A stretch of 26,987 nt of DNA, taken from positions 1 through 26,987 of the IMG/VR virus record IMGVR_UViG_3300005511_000647. The stretch is one strand, 5' to 3'. Position 1 is the first letter of the stretch, and each line of letters starts with the position of its first letter. Source of the DNA: a virus. Positions 17,629 to 26,331 of this stretch are shown here, in pieces. The position numbers were made by a program, and so were the translations under genes. The notes under the pieces were generated by a model that saw nothing but the letters and a program-made list of their open reading frames with translations, had not been told where the DNA came from and searched no databases.

Positions 17629-18006
17629 ATGCGACCGGACGGGATGCCGGTCGGCAAGCCGTTCCAGGCAGGGGAGTCCGGCAATCCGGCTGGCCGTCCT
17701 CCCGGCATTCCCAACCTTGAAGCCCGCGTACGGGCGCTGCTCGACGGGGACACCGTGCTTCCCCAGCCCATCGCCGACGCCATCCGGGCTCAGTGCGGCG
17801 AGGACAAGAAGGCCATCGACGCCGTCTTCATCGTCGGGCTGCTGCAGGCGCTGCAGGGCGACAAGGCCTGGGCTCAGTTCATCGTCGAGCGCGGCTGGGG
17901 GAAGGTGCCGGACAAGATAGAGGGCGGTGACCCCGCCAACCCAGTCCAGGTTGAGAACAGGCTCGAAGTCGTCCTCGTCCGGCCCAAGGGAAGCTCTGAT
18001 GCTTGA
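17629..18006 (+). CDS. small terminase-type protein (DUF5681-like), 125 aa
   Basis: I choose ATG 17629 (MRPDGMPVGKPFQAGESG) over an earlier start at 17587. The segment FQAGESGNPAGRPPGIPN is the N-terminal motif of DUF5681, which is regularly found directly upstream of terminase large subunits and is taken as the small terminase or a related DNA-recognition protein. A helical middle follows (ARVRALLDGD... to FIVGLLQALQGDKAWAQFI). The next gene starts by TTGA overlap, the order expected of TerS-TerL. Confidence 0.8.
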   Translation: MRPDGMPVGKPFQAGESGNPAGRPPGIPNLEARVRALLDGDTVLPQPIADAIRAQCGEDKKAIDAVFIVGLLQALQGDKAWAQFIVERGWGKVPDKIEGGDPANPVQVENRLEVVLVRPKGSSDA

Positions 18007-19283
18007 ACCGCATCGAGATCCCCGAAAAGTTCGCCGGGCTCTTTGAGCCGCATCGCTACAAGGTCTTCCATGGTGGCCGTGGTTCGGGGAAGAGCTGGTC
18101 GGTCGCCCGCGCTCTTGTCCACCTGGCTGCCCGCAAGCCCCTTCGCGTCGTATGCGCCCGTGAATTCCAGAACAGCATCGAGGAGAGCGTTCACCAGCTC
18201 CTCAAGGACCAGATTGAGCTGTTCAAGCTGCCTTACACCATCGGCAAGTACAGCATCACAAACAAGATTGGTTCTGAGTTCGTTTTCAAGGGCTTGGCGA
18301 AGAAGGACGCCACGGCCATCAAGTCGCTTGAAGGTTGCGACATATGCTGGGTTGAAGAAGCGGAAGCAGTCTCCGATGCCAGCTGGAAGAACCTTACCCC
18401 CACCGTGCGGAAGGATGGTTCCGAGATATGGATAACATTCAACCCGGACATTGAGGATGCGCCGACCTACCGCCGCTTCGTGCTGCGCCAGCCAACTGAC
18501 TGCATCTCCATCCAAGTCAACTATTTCGACAATCCGTGGTTTCCCAAAGTTCTGGAGCAAGAGCGGCTCGATATGCTTCGGGATGACCCGGATTCCTATG
18601 ACAACGTGTGGCTTGGAAAACCAAGAACCTTCAGTCAAGGCGCCATCTTCCGTCGGGAGATGGAGGCTATGAAGGAGGGCGGTCGCATCGGAAAGGTGCC
18701 GCACGACCCAAACAAGCCGGTCTTTGCAATCTTCGACTTGGGCCATGCCGCTAGCGGGAGAGGAGACCCCAACTCCGTTATCTTCGCTCAATCCGGTGCC
18801 GGGACAGGTTACAACCTCATCGACACTTGGGAGGGTAACAACGACACCCTTCCTAACGTCATCTCGACGGTTCTGCTCAAGAAGCCGTATCGATATGCGA
18901 AGGTCATCATTCCTCACGACGGCAACAACACCAACAATCACACCGGCAAGACGGACCAGGAAATAATCGAGGAGTTCGGCCTCTCGGTCGAGCTATTGGA
19001 GCGCGCTCCTTCACTCGACAAGGACATGAACAATATCCGGGTAATCTTCCCGTACCTCTATGCCGATGAAGAGAACTGCAAGGGCTTGCTTGCCGCGCTT
19101 CGTGGACACCGTCGCGAGCGTGACGACAAGACTGGCATCTGGAGGTTCAAGCACGACTGGACAAGCCACCCCGTCTCAGCTCTTCGCTACATGGCCGTTT
19201 ACATCAACATGAATGGGGGACTGCCTGCGGCGAAAGTGGCAAATGACAACCACGCCACACCACGCCGCATGGTCGCCTGCTAA
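18003..19283 (+). CDS. terL: terminase large subunit, 426 aa
   Basis: ATPase: Walker A HGGRGSGKS at residues 23-31, Walker B ICWVEEAE near 113-120, motif III FNPD near 146. Nuclease: FAIFDLGHAASGRGDPNSVI around residue 240 with the acidic D of DLG and of GDP. This is a PBSX/terminase_3-type motor that packages and cuts concatemeric phage DNA. The start is TTG at 18003, overlapping the small-terminase TGA (TTGA). Length is normal, so the gene looks intact. Confidence 0.92.
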   Translation: MNRIEIPEKFAGLFEPHRYKVFHGGRGSGKSWSVARALVHLAARKPLRVVCAREFQNSIEESVHQLLKDQIELFKLPYTIGKYSITNKIGSEFVFKGLAKKDATAIKSLEGCDICWVEEAEAVSDASWKNLTPTVRKDGSEIWITFNPDIEDAPTYRRFVLRQPTDCISIQVNYFDNPWFPKVLEQERLDMLRDDPDSYDNVWLGKPRTFSQGAIFRREMEAMKEGGRIGKVPHDPNKPVFAIFDLGHAASGRGDPNSVIFAQSGAGTGYNLIDTWEGNNDTLPNVISTVLLKKPYRYAKVIIPHDGNNTNNHTGKTDQEIIEEFGLSVELLERAPSLDKDMNNIRVIFPYLYADEENCKGLLAALRGHRRERDDKTGIWRFKHDWTSHPVSALRYMAVYINMNGGLPAAKVANDNHATPRRMVAC

Positions 19284-19289
19284 AATCAT

Positions 19290-19661
19290 TTGCCAGCGAA
19301 AAAAGTTCGGCCTTATGATTCAGCAACAACGAAAGACATGGAGATGGCTACCGACAAACAACAAATGGAAACCCAAGACCAGCGCATGGAGCGCCTGAAG
19401 TCCGAGCGCGAGAAGGAGCGGCAGGAAGATATCGCCGCAAAAGTGGCGAAAGCCAAGAAGGGCGGCATCACAGGCAAGGCGCTGGATCTCTACACCAAGG
19501 CGCTGAACGAAAAGTCCGGGTTCACCCTCATCCCGGCAGGAAAGGCGCCGCAGACCGACAAGGAGACCGGCGAAGAGTCCGGCAATCACATGGTCGAGGT
19601 CGAGATGATTGACGGCAAGCCGATTGAGTTCGACGGCATGGTTGTCGTTTCGACGAAGTAG
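19290..19661 (+). CDS. small charged protein upstream of the portal, 123 aa
   Basis: The frame starts at TTG 19290 or at ATG 19338 (MEMATDKQQMETQDQRMERL), followed by a long Glu/Lys/Arg-rich helix (MERLKSEREKERQEDIAAKV, AKAKKGGITGKALDLY) and a beta-rich C-terminal half (FTLIPAGKAPQ, HMVEVEMIDGKPIEFDG). It ends in TAG at 19659-19661, and the following 183 bases continue open in the same frame into the portal. That arrangement could let read-through make a fusion. Function unknown; possibly a small virion or packaging cofactor. Confidence 0.6.
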   Translation: MPAKKVRPYDSATTKDMEMATDKQQMETQDQRMERLKSEREKERQEDIAAKVAKAKKGGITGKALDLYTKALNEKSGFTLIPAGKAPQTDKETGEESGNHMVEVEMIDGKPIEFDGMVVVSTK

Positions 19662-19667
19662 CCACCC

Positions 19668-21500
19668 ATCGCAGAGTACACCGCCCGCGAGAAGGAACTC
19701 TTAGAGAAAGCTAAGAGCCAGTTCGAGGCTGCCATCTGCAACCCGACGTATCAGGGATGGTACAGGCAGGCGAAGCAGGCGTACGGCTTTTACGAGGGCG
19801 GTCTCAAGCATTGGACACCGCAAGAGATTGAGTCGATTGAGGCCATGGGCATCCAGCCCCTGACCTTCAACAAGATCCTGCCGCGCCTAAACAACGTCGC
19901 CGGCATGGAGGTGCAGACCCGCACCAAGGTGACGTTCCGGGCGCGCTCATACGACAAGAATGAAAAAGACACCGCAGAGGCGCTGAGCGATCTCGCGATG
20001 TTCGTCCAGGACAAGAACAACTCCACACATATCCTCAGCCATGTTGGCCATGATGCCCGTGTATGCGGCCTCGGCTGGCATGAGTTCGATGTGCAGGACG
20101 GCGTTATCCGTGAGGGCCGCTCCGACCCGCTGCTGACCATTCCCGACCTGGCTGACCGTACGCCCGGCCTGACTGAGCAGCGCTTCGTCGGCAAGGGCTG
20201 CTGGATGCCGAAGGATTTGGTCAAGCAGAAGTGGAGCGATGCTGACGTAGACGCCGCGCAGTGGGGATTTGCGATGCCCTTCGGTGGAGAGGCGTACTGC
20301 CCGGTGACGACCTGTGGCGGCTACATGAACGATGAGACCCAGATGGTGTTCGTCGTTGAGTGGTCAATGCGCATCCCGTCCAAATACTATGAGGTCATCG
20401 ATCGTTCTAACCGACTGGTGACGACCTTCGATAAAGCGGAGGCCAAAGCCATCGCCGCTCGGCCTCAGTACAAAAACATCACGGAGAAGCAGGGCTATAA
20501 GATTGTCTTCGTCTACTTCACCGGCAACGTGCTGCTCGAGGTGCTCGAGGACAGCTATCAGCTCAACCCGGCCAAGGGCCTGTTCCTGCTCACTCCCACC
20601 GTCTGCTTCCGCGATAACGATACGGGGGCACCGTTCGGCTTGGTCCGCAACGCCATCGACCCGCAGCGCCGGTACAACAAGACCAAGAACCGTCTGATTT
20701 GGCTGCAGGCAGCCCACCAGGTCATCATGGAAGGCGATGCTGCGGACGAGCAAAAGGTACGTGACGAAGCAGCCCGCCCCGACGGTGTCCTTATCGTAAA
20801 AGCCGGTAAGCAACTTAATATCAATCGTCACGAACAGGCCATTGCCCAGCACCTTGCTGCGTTGGACAGCGACGACAAGGACATCCAGGCCGCGCTCGGC
20901 ATCTATGATGAGAGCCTTGGCATCGAGACCAACGCCAACAGCGGTATCGCCATCCAAAAGCGCCAGCTCGGCTCCTCCCGCAACATGGCCATGGTCATTG
21001 ATAACGCGCTGGCGGCCAAGAAGCGTTGGGCCGAAAAGCTCCTCTACCTCATCCAGTCCGTATTCACCGAACAGACCGCCTTCTGGGTCGTGGATGACAA
21101 GAACGAGATGCAACAGCTGGTGCTCAACCAGCCCGAGCTTGGTGCCGATGGAAAGCCAGCAAAGGACAAGAGCGGCAAGCCCATCCTCAAGTACGACATC
21201 AAGACCGGCGTCTACGACGTGTTCGTGGAGGAAGTGCCGGACGTAGCCTCTCAGCAAGAGGTTGCCCGAGACATGATCCTGCAGGCTCTTCCGGGTATCG
21301 GCGGTCTCCAGAACCTCACGCCTGGCTTCCTTGAGCTGCTTGGCGTTCCCCAATCTTCAAAGCTCATGCAGGAAGTGATGCAGGGCGTGCCGCAGAAGCT
21401 CGCCGCTGCAAACGCCGCTGCAGAAGCTGCAGCAAAGAATTCAGTAGGAGGCCTCGTGCCGACGAACACCCCCCAGCTCGGGGCGCCAATGCCGGCGTAG
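19668..21500 (+). CDS. portal protein (P22-like), about 610 aa, start codon unclear
   Basis: The main body has YNKTKNRLIWLQAAHQVIME and the NSGIAIQKRQLGSSRNMAMV segment characteristic of P22-type portals, which form the dodecameric DNA channel at the head vertex. The first ATG in frame is 19845, but coding continues upstream: AEYTAREKELLEKAKSQFEA and FYEGGLKHWTPQEIESIEA are the normal portal N-terminus. Between the amber codon at 19659 and ATG 19845 there is no ATG, GTG or TTG; the only candidate near the start is ATC at 19668. I give the start as 19668, but read-through of the TAG is equally possible. The C-terminus is Ala/Asn-rich. Confidence 0.85.
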   Translation: MAEYTAREKELLEKAKSQFEAAICNPTYQGWYRQAKQAYGFYEGGLKHWTPQEIESIEAMGIQPLTFNKILPRLNNVAGMEVQTRTKVTFRARSYDKNEKDTAEALSDLAMFVQDKNNSTHILSHVGHDARVCGLGWHEFDVQDGVIREGRSDPLLTIPDLADRTPGLTEQRFVGKGCWMPKDLVKQKWSDADVDAAQWGFAMPFGGEAYCPVTTCGGYMNDETQMVFVVEWSMRIPSKYYEVIDRSNRLVTTFDKAEAKAIAARPQYKNITEKQGYKIVFVYFTGNVLLEVLEDSYQLNPAKGLFLLTPTVCFRDNDTGAPFGLVRNAIDPQRRYNKTKNRLIWLQAAHQVIMEGDAADEQKVRDEAARPDGVLIVKAGKQLNINRHEQAIAQHLAALDSDDKDIQAALGIYDESLGIETNANSGIAIQKRQLGSSRNMAMVIDNALAAKKRWAEKLLYLIQSVFTEQTAFWVVDDKNEMQQLVLNQPELGADGKPAKDKSGKPILKYDIKTGVYDVFVEEVPDVASQQEVARDMILQALPGIGGLQNLTPGFLELLGVPQSSKLMQEVMQGVPQKLAAANAAAEAAAKNSVGGLVPTNTPQLGAPMPA

Positions 21501-21528: not shown

Positions 21529-22293
21529 ATGACGACGACTGATGAGGACCAATTGCAACCGACCGCCGATGGCGAGGACACAGTAATCGACGAGACCGAA
21601 GCGCCTGCTGAAGGTGCCGAGGGCGAGGAGGGCACTGAACAGCCGGACCCGGAAGCAAATGGTGACGAGCAGAAAGAACAACCGAAACCGCAGGAGAATG
21701 CGGAGCTTAAGCAATGGCGCGACAAGGCCAACATCTCGAACGGGCAGCTTGCCACTGTCACGAGGACCCTCAAGGCCCTCAAGGACAAGGGACTGTTGAC
21801 CGACGAAGCCATTGAAGAAGCTGCCGCAGCTCAAGGTGTTGACGTAAGCGCACTGCGCAGCGTCCTGAACCAGGAGCCTCCGCCAGCCAACCCCGTGCAA
21901 GCAAATGCGCAGCGCCTGGTTGAGCAGTTCGACCGGGAAAAGCCGGGCGAGTTGAAGCTGGCAATGGACGAAGCGTATGGCGAAGACACTCAAAAGTACT
22001 TTGATGCCTTCAACTGGCTGATTGGTGCGGACAAGGACGAGGTACAAGCCCTCGGAGATGTTCCCGCCAATAAGGTGGTTGCCTACGCAATCCGACGCGG
22101 GAAGGAAATCTTTGCTGAGTATGAGGAACTGCAAGCCTATGGCGGCTCTCCTCTCAAAGCTCACCGTGCCTTGAAGAAAGGTGCGGCCAAACCTCCTCAG
22201 CCGAAAAAAGAACGGACGCCCATGAATAGCAGTGAGGCCCCGCCGACGCCTAAACCGCGTCAGCCCGGGAAGAGCTTCTACGACGGCGTTTAA
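21529..22293 (+). CDS. scaffolding protein, 254 aa
   Basis: Starts MTTTDEDQLQPTADGEDTVI and is strongly acidic at the N-terminus, helical in the middle (ELKQWRDKANISNGQLATVT, DEAIEEAAAAQGVDV), with a basic C-terminal tail (KKGAAKPPQPKKERTPMNSS). Low complexity, acidic to basic polarity and the position directly before the coat gene are those of phage scaffolding proteins that organise capsid assembly and then leave the head. GGAAG and GCGAA are weak signals before the ATG. Confidence 0.75.
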   Translation: MTTTDEDQLQPTADGEDTVIDETEAPAEGAEGEEGTEQPDPEANGDEQKEQPKPQENAELKQWRDKANISNGQLATVTRTLKALKDKGLLTDEAIEEAAAAQGVDVSALRSVLNQEPPPANPVQANAQRLVEQFDREKPGELKLAMDEAYGEDTQKYFDAFNWLIGADKDEVQALGDVPANKVVAYAIRRGKEIFAEYEELQAYGGSPLKAHRALKKGAAKPPQPKKERTPMNSSEAPPTPKPRQPGKSFYDGV

Positions 22294-22319
22294 ACAACAA
22301 CGCAACGAAAGTGAGGTAA

Positions 22320-23435
22320 TTGGCTACATTTACCGAAAACGTCGCAACTGGCAGTTCGCTCAAGCCCATCAACGTGGCTGACAGCGTCTTCCGGGGCTAC
22401 AAAGAAGACAACCGCTTCAAGCGCCTTATGGGCAGCGGTGAAAACAACATCATCAACGTCAAGTTCTTCGAGAAGGGGGAAGGTGATACCTTCAAATTCC
22501 CGTTCTCCGCTGGCGTCCCGCTCAGTTCCTGGGTGGCCGACACCACTGTGATGGAGGATACCGGTGCGCAGTTGGTGAAAACAACCGACAGCATCACCAT
22601 CGGTCTCAAGCGTGTGCCGATTCTGATTAATGGGTACACCATGAGCCAGAACCGCACCACGTTTGACCTGTGGGAGAATGACACCTTCGAGCTGAAGCGC
22701 AGTGTGGGTGAGAAGACCGAAGACGTGATCCTTAGTGCCTTCCTCGACACCAGCGCAGGCCGTGTGCAGGAGCGCTACCGGTACGGCTCTGACTACAACA
22801 ACTGGAACGCCACCGCGGCGACTGCAAAGGCCAACGTCGACAACACCGATGACAAGCTGAAGCTGTCAGACATCAAGAACTTGGCTCTCCAGGCCAAGCG
22901 CAAGTACGTGTCCGGCGGTCTCCGCATGAACCCGTACCAGATCAAGACTGGCGAAGGCGGTGCTCCGGCCCGTAAGTGGATTTATGTAGGCCATTCGCTC
23001 TCGATCCGCGACCTGAAGGATGATCCCGACTTCCTGAACCAGATCATCTACAAGGACCGTCCTGAGTTCGATCTCATCGGTGGCTCCGACTATATCGGTG
23101 AGTACGAAGGCGTGATGATCTATGAGCTGAACAACGACAGCATGCTTGAAGCCTCTGCTGGCGCTGGCGGCATCCAGATCGCACACAACTTCCTGTTCGG
23201 CCAGAACGCCCTGGGTCTCGGCTTCGGTAAGGTGCCGCTGACGCCTGGCACTGCCATCAAGAAGGTGTCCGCACCTGAAGACCGCGGTGTCATCACCATC
23301 ATGGAGAAGGACCACGGCCAGAAGGTTGAGGCGGGCTTCTCCTACGTGATTGGCGCCAAGCAGCTCTGCGAAAACACCTCCGGGACCTCGCAGGCCTTCG
23401 GCACCATCCACCACTACACCGCAGCGGTGGAGTAA
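22320..23435 (+). CDS. major capsid protein (DUF4043-like), 371 aa
   Basis: Starts MATFTENVATGSSLKPINVA and carries NNIINVKFFEKGEGDTFKFP, SQNRTTFDLWENDTFELKRS and RKWIYVGHSLSIRDLKDDPD, matching the DUF4043 (N4-gp56-like) coat family with an HK97 core. The C-terminus has FSYVIGAKQLCENTSG. The TTG start at 22320 is preceded by CGAAAG with an 8-base spacer (CGAAAGTGAGGTAA). It is the most abundant virion protein, and is directly downstream of the scaffold gene. Confidence 0.85.
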   Translation: MATFTENVATGSSLKPINVADSVFRGYKEDNRFKRLMGSGENNIINVKFFEKGEGDTFKFPFSAGVPLSSWVADTTVMEDTGAQLVKTTDSITIGLKRVPILINGYTMSQNRTTFDLWENDTFELKRSVGEKTEDVILSAFLDTSAGRVQERYRYGSDYNNWNATAATAKANVDNTDDKLKLSDIKNLALQAKRKYVSGGLRMNPYQIKTGEGGAPARKWIYVGHSLSIRDLKDDPDFLNQIIYKDRPEFDLIGGSDYIGEYEGVMIYELNNDSMLEASAGAGGIQIAHNFLFGQNALGLGFGKVPLTPGTAIKKVSAPEDRGVITIMEKDHGQKVEAGFSYVIGAKQLCENTSGTSQAFGTIHHYTAAVE

Positions 23436-23863: not shown

Positions 23864-24502
23864 GTGCCTACCGCAGCCCAGCTCATCACCAATATCCGCA
23901 GCCTGGCGCTGGTTGGTACGACGGGCGCGGTGGATCTGACCCGGGTCGAGGCCTACCTGAACATGGCCTATCGAGACCTCTATGAGAAAGTGGCGGAGCG
24001 GTACCCGTGGTTTGTCCAGGAGGTGGAAGAGGTATCCGTCATCTACGGTCAAGGCGAGTTCCACACGCAGCCCCTGCACATTCTCAGTGTCTACGACATT
24101 GGTGGCCAGCGGCTGCTGACTGCAACCGATATCGCCGCCATTGAGCAGAAAGACCCAGCGTTCACGTCCGCGGGTAGCCCGGAAGAATTCTACGTCCTCG
24201 GCTTCGACGCCCTGTGCTCCTGGCCGCAGAACGACACCACGCTCCGGGTGCGGTTCACTCCGAACGCTGCGGTTCTGTCCAATGACAGCACGGAAGCCGA
24301 CATCAAGCTCCAGCCCGCCCACCATGACGTGCTGACTTGGGCCACATTGAAGCTGATGGCGTATGACGAGCGGGACAAAGTTGTTGGAGCTGAATTGGCT
24401 TTCAACCAGCAGGAGATGGACCGGGCAGAGGACCGCATGTGGCGCTGGTTCGATGCCCATGCACCCAAGAAGAGTAAACCAGTGAAAAGCTACATGCTTT
24501 GA
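23864..24502 (+). CDS. head-tail adaptor protein, 212 aa
   Basis: Starts MPTAAQLITNIRSLALVGTT and has AYLNMAYRDLYEKVAERYPW, a helical pattern of the phage adaptor family (DUF6682-type) that attaches under the portal. The middle is beta-rich (HILSVYDIGGQRLLTATDI). The GTG start at 23864 is preceded by CGAAAG with a 7-base spacer. The order portal-scaffold-capsid-adaptor is normal. The next gene overlaps by TTGA at 24499-24502. Confidence 0.75.
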   Translation: MPTAAQLITNIRSLALVGTTGAVDLTRVEAYLNMAYRDLYEKVAERYPWFVQEVEEVSVIYGQGEFHTQPLHILSVYDIGGQRLLTATDIAAIEQKDPAFTSAGSPEEFYVLGFDALCSWPQNDTTLRVRFTPNAAVLSNDSTEADIKLQPAHHDVLTWATLKLMAYDERDKVVGAELAFNQQEMDRAEDRMWRWFDAHAPKKSKPVKSYML

Positions 24503-26331
24503 GCGCCACGCGCATCGGCTTGTTCGATGGGCGTCTGCTGACGCTCTTTCCGCGCGCTCTACTGAACACTGCTCTCAGCCCGACGCTAGTCGTCAAGGAC
24601 AAGCAGGCAAGGCTTATCGAGAACATCATTCCCAACACCAACAAGGCCGGCAGCGGTGCGAAGCGCTTTGGGCTATCCCGAAAGGGAAATGCGTTTGTCG
24701 GCGTTAGCGCGGTTGGAGAACCATTCGAGTATCGCAAGAGCGATGGCACCCTGCAGGTCATCCAGTATTTCAGCGACGGCAGCCTGCGGACCTTGGATGA
24801 AGGTACGGGCGCCTACACCATCATCAAGACCGGCCTTAATACCAGCGGCACGGTCGGGGCGGTACCGTTCAATGACAAGCTGGTCTTTTACAATGGCGTG
24901 GACAACTGCTTCGCGTGGGACGGCTCGACCTGCACCGACCTTGGGGAGTACGTGACCGATATCCTGGCCACATCAGCGACTCAGGTATCGACCTCGCAAT
25001 TCACGTTGAAGCCTGGCGGCAGCCGCGCTGCGAGTGACTACCCCAATGGCCGCGCAATCAAAGTCACGTTCGCCACTTCTGGCGTCATCTCAGCCACAAT
25101 CTCCTCCACCTCCTATAATGCTGGTACCAACACACTGACCATCAACGTGACCGGCACACCTTTCCCAGCTGTCGTGGAGACCATCGACAAGGTCGAATAT
25201 TTCGCCAAGCCGCCAACCTTCAGCTTCCTCTTCGCTCACCTTGACCGCTTGTGGGGTCTCTCTGCAGGGGTTCTCAAGGCCAAGCAGTTTCGCGGGCAGG
25301 ACGGCATGAAGGTCTGCTTCCAGGCAGCGGCTAACAACGAAAACTCCTGGTATTTCTACACAGGGACAGGAGCTACACAGGACATTCCATTCATCAATCT
25401 GCGCAACAAGGTGCCGCAGTTCGACGAGCTGGTTTCGATGTCAGTCATAGATGGCTCCGCCTGCTTCCACGGTCGGAGTTATCTGGTGCTCTATACGGGC
25501 GACGACCCGATGACGGTCGGCGGCTTCGTCTGGGCTAAGACCATCCCGGTAGGCACGGTCCATCAAAAGTTGGTGCAGCGTCTGCCCACCGACACACTCT
25601 TCGTCACACCCGCCGGCATCCGCTCTCTGCGGAAGGTCTTCCAGACCGAACAGGCAGAAGTCCTCGATGACCTCGGGGGTGATATCGACCCGACCGTCCA
25701 GGCCAAGATTAAAACGCTTTTGTCCGGTGATGCCGAGTACAGGAAGGCCCGGAGCTTCTACTATCCACATGACGGCTTGTATGGATTCAAACTCGATGAC
25801 GATGGCCTGCTGGCCTTCATTCTGAACAAGCAGGGGGCAGGGTGGGTTATTCTGACGGGCTATTTCGCTGACGCGCTCGGCTTCCTAGGTACGACAGACG
25901 GCCGCCTTCTCGTGTCCAGGGCCACAAATCTCTATGCCTACGCCAACGGTACGGACGATGACGCACCGATCGCCTATAGCGACAACGGCAACGCCATTGA
26001 TTGCAAATGGTGGATTCCGTGGGTGCAGATTGCCGGGCGCTGGGGCAACCGTGCTTTTGAGATTCTGGTGGAGCAGACTGCGGGCGGCACCATCACCATC
26101 GACCGCTTTATCAATTTCAATGAGCAGGACGTTGTGACGACCACAGCTCAGATGCAAGAGATGGGGTCGATGTGGGATGACGCGATGTGGGATGAAGCCA
26201 CATGGGATGGCAACACTCAGAACCCGGTCGTATCCGATAAGTTTTTGGCTGACAGCTTCTCGGTTTTGGTGAGACACTTCGATACAGAGGGACCGAGATC
26301 CATTCTCGGGATAAGACCAATAGGAAGATGA
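24499..26331 (+). CDS. head-closure/stabilisation-type tail protein, 610 aa
   Basis: Starts MSATRIGLFDGRLLTLFPRA after a TTG at 24499 inside the previous stop. The body is beta-rich with repeated short blades (DKLVFYNGVDNCFAWDGSTC, SYLVLYTGDDPMTVGGFVWA, RLLVSRATNLYAYANGTDDD). Position behind the adaptor and this composition match podovirus head-closure or packaged-DNA-stabilisation proteins (P22 gp10-like) or the tail-tube/hub protein of similar phages. The C-terminus has MGSMWDDAMWDEATWDG, a short Trp/Asp repeat. Confidence 0.7.
   Translation: MSATRIGLFDGRLLTLFPRALLNTALSPTLVVKDKQARLIENIIPNTNKAGSGAKRFGLSRKGNAFVGVSAVGEPFEYRKSDGTLQVIQYFSDGSLRTLDEGTGAYTIIKTGLNTSGTVGAVPFNDKLVFYNGVDNCFAWDGSTCTDLGEYVTDILATSATQVSTSQFTLKPGGSRAASDYPNGRAIKVTFATSGVISATISSTSYNAGTNTLTINVTGTPFPAVVETIDKVEYFAKPPTFSFLFAHLDRLWGLSAGVLKAKQFRGQDGMKVCFQAAANNENSWYFYTGTGATQDIPFINLRNKVPQFDELVSMSVIDGSACFHGRSYLVLYTGDDPMTVGGFVWAKTIPVGTVHQKLVQRLPTDTLFVTPAGIRSLRKVFQTEQAEVLDDLGGDIDPTVQAKIKTLLSGDAEYRKARSFYYPHDGLYGFKLDDDGLLAFILNKQGAGWVILTGYFADALGFLGTTDGRLLVSRATNLYAYANGTDDDAPIAYSDNGNAIDCKWWIPWVQIAGRWGNRAFEILVEQTAGGTITIDRFINFNEQDVVTTTAQMQEMGSMWDDAMWDEATWDGNTQNPVVSDKFLADSFSVLVRHFDTEGPRSILGIRPIGR

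Follow-up and report, generated by a model that had tools for sequence, protein, structure and literature searches.

Comparative evidence for a near-cognate start codon of the portal gene in Bradyrhizobium-related phages and prophages

Gene organization around the portal gene

The DNA analysed here, termed the window, is the whole 26,987-base virus record IMGVR_UViG_3300005511_000647. The genes of the region are arranged in the order terL, a small gene, the portal gene, a gene at 21529 and the capsid gene, and the portal gene thus occupies the position expected of a P22-like portal, with the terminase on one side and the scaffold/capsid genes on the other. Features are listed in Table 1.

Table 1. 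Features of the small gene and the portal gene in the window
Feature	Position	Strand	Remarks
Putative sigma70-like promoter	19290..19319	+	TTGCCA (19290-19295), 18 nt, TATGAT (19314-19319)
GAAAG, putative ribosome-binding motif of the small gene	19331..19335	+	can pair with the extended anti-SD tail of 16S rRNA
Small upstream gene	19344..19661	+	105 aa from ATG 19344; 107 aa if from ATG 19338
GAAG, weak SD-like motif of the portal gene	19655..19658	+	-13 to -10; overlaps AAG (Lys), the last sense codon of the upstream gene
Stop codon of the small upstream gene	19659..19661	+	TAG here; relatives have TAG or TAA
6-nt spacer between stop and start	19662..19667	+	length conserved, encoded residues not
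Putative near-cognate portal start, ATC	19668..19670	+	ATC, ATT or CTG in the clade; TTG, GTG or ATG in other relatives
Portal gene, P22-like (PF16510)	19668..21500	+	610 aa; stop codon TAG 21498-21500
SQFEAAICNPTYQGWYR			example peptide within portal residues 1-59

The original prediction gave the small upstream protein 123 aa. A length of 107 or 105 aa is more likely, because TTG 19290, which was taken as the start by the ORF finder, forms part of the -35 box of the sigma70-like element and is unlikely to be the start of the gene. Judged from its sequence, this element is probably the head-operon promoter. A promoter-like TTGCCA-N17/18-TATGATTC was strongly conserved in the gap between terL and the small gene of the relatives. 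For the ribosome-binding motif of the small gene, the extended anti-SD tail of 16S rRNA was used in its generally known form. No family was found for the small upstream protein, which was predicted to consist of a long N-terminal helix and a small C-terminal beta domain (model pLDDT 79); the model gave no fold match. In one relative (L025:2707-2800), the N-terminal half of the small gene carries three copies of an AKTQKAAPA tandem repeat that is absent in the other relatives.

The N-terminal stretch of the portal frame is coding

The 183 bases at 19662-19844 are open in the frame shared by both neighbouring genes and contain no in-frame ATG, GTG or TTG. Counted from ATC 19668, codons 1-59 are all non-canonical, and the first canonical codon in frame after the TAG is ATG 19845, which is codon 60. 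The claim that 183 coding bases lack a canonical start was therefore confirmed by this frame check, and also by six relatives described below.

The Pfam P22_portal profile (PF16510) matched the portal frame with an E value of 5e-84 and a score of 283 bits, against a curated cut-off of 26.1 bits. The match spanned residues 30-590 of the frame following the stop and positions 11-565 of the 594 in the profile, and thereby began 30 residues past the stop, well upstream of ATG 19845. The frame also matched the phrog_156 portal, and solved portals in the PDB aligned over part of the N-terminal stretch, from profile position 37 or earlier. Over 58 N-terminal codons, dN and dS between the window and its relatives were 0.12 and 0.81 (L004), 0.41 and 1.49 (L002), and 0.45 and 2.9 (L003), and dN/dS over approximately 58 N-terminal codons was below 1 in every computable pair. 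By these comparisons, the N-terminal stretch of the portal is protein-coding and under purifying selection; the Pfam match upstream of ATG 19845 and the dN/dS values well below 1 bear out the portal-like N-terminus that had been noticed in the translation. The AlphaFold model of the portal (pLDDT 44) was unusable.

Amber recoding was dropped as a candidate, as TAG terminates both the small gene and the portal gene and the window yielded no tRNA; genome-wide recoding of TAG had been considered unlikely in the original prediction for its part.

Near-cognate codons at the same site in relatives

Six independently sequenced relatives, with 95-56% amino-acid identity, also lack a canonical start, and two of the six lie in bacterial genomes. 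L005 (isolate genome of Bradyrhizobium manausense, 95% amino-acid identity) and L004 (IMG/VR contig, 90%) carry ATC like the window, L002 (IMG/VR contig, 78%) carries ATT, and L003 (IMG/VR contig, about 67%) carries CTG, as do L024 (bacterial genome) and L025 (viral contig), both at 56-58% identity. Genome G036, from the same genus as the genome carrying L024, is presumably Bradyrhizobium-like as judged from a 16S fragment, and the genus of L024 is therefore assumed as well. In L024, codon 35 of the portal frame is an ATG.

In all seven near-cognate loci, the codon located exactly 6 nt past the upstream stop differs from ATG by one mismatch. The stop itself is TAG in four of the seven and TAA in three, and the two spacer codons encode PP, PP, QT, TD, PE, RA and RA. 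When loci with canonical starts were taken together with these, the distance between stop and start was 6 nt in nine of ten loci and 7 nt in one, and this held down to 40% identity. In the tree, a single branch with moderate support (75/86) separates the near-cognate loci from the others.

Since the missing start is common to six relatives, it is neither a chance feature of the window nor an error. An error of sequencing or assembly, such as ATC read in place of ATG, had been raised originally, and one contig by itself could not have excluded it; independent contigs and two genome assemblies share the same absence with different codons, and the same arrangement in an isolate genome excludes this option for the clade, so that its probability is negligible. 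ATC, ATT, ATA and CTG together account for 7.4% of the portal codons, and the chance of finding such codons in three separate lineages (the ATH group, L003, and L024/L025) was about 4e-4, a rough figure, since the lineages share ancestry and the site was picked after the fact. As ATC, ATT and CTG encode Ile or Leu, conservation of the residue may account for some of the pattern, and the near-cognate loci are few (seven), some of them being close relatives.

A nucleotide search against GenBank phages gave no matches, and protein searches against GenBank phages and plasmids gave only low-identity portals (about 22-34% over the matched part), five of which were examined and all had canonical starts. 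A degenerate DNA pattern scan produced only chance matches besides the known loci. Searches of Rhizobiales genomes were mostly empty, with one match in 146 Mesorhizobium genomes and one in 266 genomes of the genus of G036. The loci with a near-cognate portal start make up a small group of Bradyrhizobium-related phages and prophages.

Canonical starts at the same site in more distant relatives

In L035 and L037 (40% identity), a canonical TTG lies in frame at exactly 6 nt past the stop. In L039, found in a genome of the same class as that carrying L006, an ATG is placed so that MAQQNEAGKETLARVKGWFEAA pairs gap-free with IAEYTAREKELLEKAKSQFEAA, and the number of residues from this ATG to the conserved FEAA motif equals that from the near-cognate site. 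In L006 (Mesorhizobium genome, 64%), the homologous canonical codon is a GTG one nucleotide further, 7 nt past the stop, and its frame differs from that of the upstream gene; thus no fusion of the two products is possible in L006. Because canonical starts occupy this site in more distant relatives, the conserved site is very probably the start codon, which would have turned non-canonical in one part of the tree.

These loci also bear on UAG-C read-through, by which a fraction of ribosomes would fuse the small protein to the portal, as the original prediction had offered. In nine of ten loci, the upstream gene, the stop and the portal are indeed in the same frame, seven loci have no canonical start, and the linker Arg-Ala is common to L024 and L025. 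Programmed read-through would be marked by a conserved leaky stop and frame followed by a startless extension, and this pattern was not found: the stop varies, with three of the seven near-cognate loci ending the upstream gene in TAA, the linker residues vary, the L006 portal lies in a different frame and has a GTG, L035 and L037 carry their canonical TTG at this very site, and no suppressor tRNA was found in the window. The TAA stops, the variable linker, the frame of L006 and the canonical TTG and ATG of distant relatives contradict read-through as a conserved mechanism, and it is considered very unlikely.

A portal beginning at ATG 19845, one of the outcomes named in advance as refuting the prediction, would leave the 183 bases as a relic or an upstream leader. 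This ATG is the first canonical codon in frame, and ATG or TTG occurs among codons 59-64 in several relatives. However, this ATG is not a conserved codon; in L003, the first canonical in-frame codon comes no earlier than codon 78, inside the conserved core. The stretch preceding the ATG is under purifying selection and is partly matched by Pfam and by solved portals, and TTG or ATG stands at the upstream position in more distant relatives. A start at ATG 19845 is thus scarcely probable at all. Comparison of the relatives strongly supports the remaining option of the prediction, a non-standard start at ATC 19668.

Ribosome-binding motifs and coupling to the small gene

The GAAG motif was present at -13 to -10 in all seven near-cognate loci, where it is formed by the end of the upstream gene (GAAG-TAG). 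Most genes of the cassette have GAAAG or GGAAG around -14 to -9, in keeping with base pairing to the extended anti-SD tail, and the portal GAAG lies at the same place. All other aligned cassette genes start with ATG, GTG or TTG, the portal gene being the exception. Across all seven near-cognate loci, the pairing energy of GAAG was -1.8 to -2.9 kcal/mol, versus about -4 to -11 kcal/mol for most other genes, and the motif is the weakest of the set except that of the gene at 24499 (below). When in-frame positions were ranked with a motif matrix derived from the other genes, the portal site came first to seventh of 77 in the seven near-cognate loci, while the score of the window itself was unremarkable, with 4% of the positions in the gene being equally good; the ranking is supportive of the start site, not decisive. 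No convincing conserved RNA fold and no Rfam match were found around the portal start.

An SD-like GAAG at the right distance would also suit free 30S subunits initiating at ATC 19668 in an uncoupled manner, in which case the nearby stop would be incidental, and infC offers a precedent in starting at ATT with an SD. What speaks against uncoupled initiation is that GAAG is so weak a motif within the set, that initiation at a near-cognate codon behind a weak SD should be very poor unless ribosomes are delivered to it, and that the stop-start distance is kept over such divergent loci. This conserved closeness of stop and start, 6 nt in all loci but one, is characteristic of coupled gene pairs. 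Uncoupled initiation is accordingly regarded as unlikely, with some weight left to it, and the portal most likely starts at ATC 19668 by termination-reinitiation after the small gene.

Proposed mechanism of portal initiation

Comparison of the relatives gives the position of the portal start, its codons and its spacing. At this position, the initiator tRNA would decode ATC 19668 as fMet. A ribosome ending translation of the small gene at TAG 19659 would be retained by the GAAG motif close by, move on to the codon 6 nt further along and reinitiate there, which we infer to be favoured over independent initiation. The near-cognate codon, presumably checked by IF3, would keep portal synthesis low relative to that of the coat protein. 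A low portal output is probable because such codons initiate at about 1% of the level of ATG and are subject to the IF3 check. A virion needs about 12 copies of the portal, versus several hundred coat proteins, and this small number makes a low output plausible as the purpose. It is conceivable, although rather doubtful, that near-cognate starts were fixed as a portal dosage valve, in which portal synthesis would depend on ribosomes delivered from upstream and, throttled by host IF3, would set the portal-to-coat ratio. Two points count against a near-cognate start: such initiation is as a rule very inefficient, and the portal is an essential protein. In E. coli, a CUG start gives 0.86% of AUG expression (PMC11497404); reinitiation drops steeply with distance (PMC10666635) and is sensitive to IF3 (PMC2268962).

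Comparison with known systems

The infC gene, encoding IF3, starts with ATT in E. coli and ATC in Streptomyces (PMC5472188). It shares with the portal gene the class of start codon against which IF3 discriminates, but infC has a good SD and is autoregulated, whereas the portal, a phage structural gene not known to be autoregulated, is preceded by a weak SD and starts 6 nt after a stop. In three Rhizobiales genomes (G036 and the genomes carrying L024 and L006), infC appears, as read from the sequence, to start with ATT after an SD; the three loci (L026, L027 and L028) read ATT CGC CGT/AGA after GGAG or GAG. Because infC appears to begin with ATT, this suggests that the ribosomes of such hosts accept near-cognate codons.

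The GTC start of Streptomyces sigR (PMC5472188) is likewise a weak non-canonical start limiting the level of a protein, but it belongs to a host regulator and was experimentally shown, whereas the ATC, ATT and CTG of the portal are known from sequence comparison. As in M13 genes V and VII and other coupled pairs (PMC2268962; PMC10666635), in which upstream ribosomes translate the downstream gene, stop and start are a few nucleotides apart at the portal; most known pairs have an overlap of 4 or 1 nt, unlike the portal with its +6 nt and near-cognate codons. Genes of Campylobacter phage vB_CcoM-IBB_35 (PMC3322345) have also been annotated with ATT, ATC and CTG starts; in the part of that report available to us, these were given as overall percentages only, with neither comparative or experimental support for individual starts nor a tie to the portal. 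A search of the literature available to us found no report of a near-cognate portal start, and the start described here would be a conserved, new variant of the phenomenon known from infC (AUU) and sigR (GTC).

Near-cognate starts are very uncommon: CUG accounts for about 0.024% of bacterial starts (PMC11497404), and three switches to CUG or AUU were counted among 61,358 ancestral AUG starts (PMC5622118). The codon has changed between ATC, ATT and CTG in the clade and yet has stayed near-cognate in an essential structural gene, which suggests that its weakness is tolerated or selected. The clade offers a direct test of whether phages use initiation strength and IF3 for structural stoichiometry. 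Standard gene callers, which take only ATG, GTG and TTG, would truncate such portals.

Other start codons in the cassette

The start of terL in the window (17980-18007) is a TTG that overlaps the terS stop (TTGA), and the other aligned relatives begin terL with TTG or GTG; this is a second conserved weak start in the cassette, and apparently a coupled one. The gene at 24499-26331, which has a TTG start and a weak SD, gave an unexpected match to a PHROG amidase family (E 3e-12) and lies in a structural position. The start of the capsid gene (22300-22322) varies between TTG, GTG and ATG among close relatives, with the upstream GAAAGTGAGG invariant in four.
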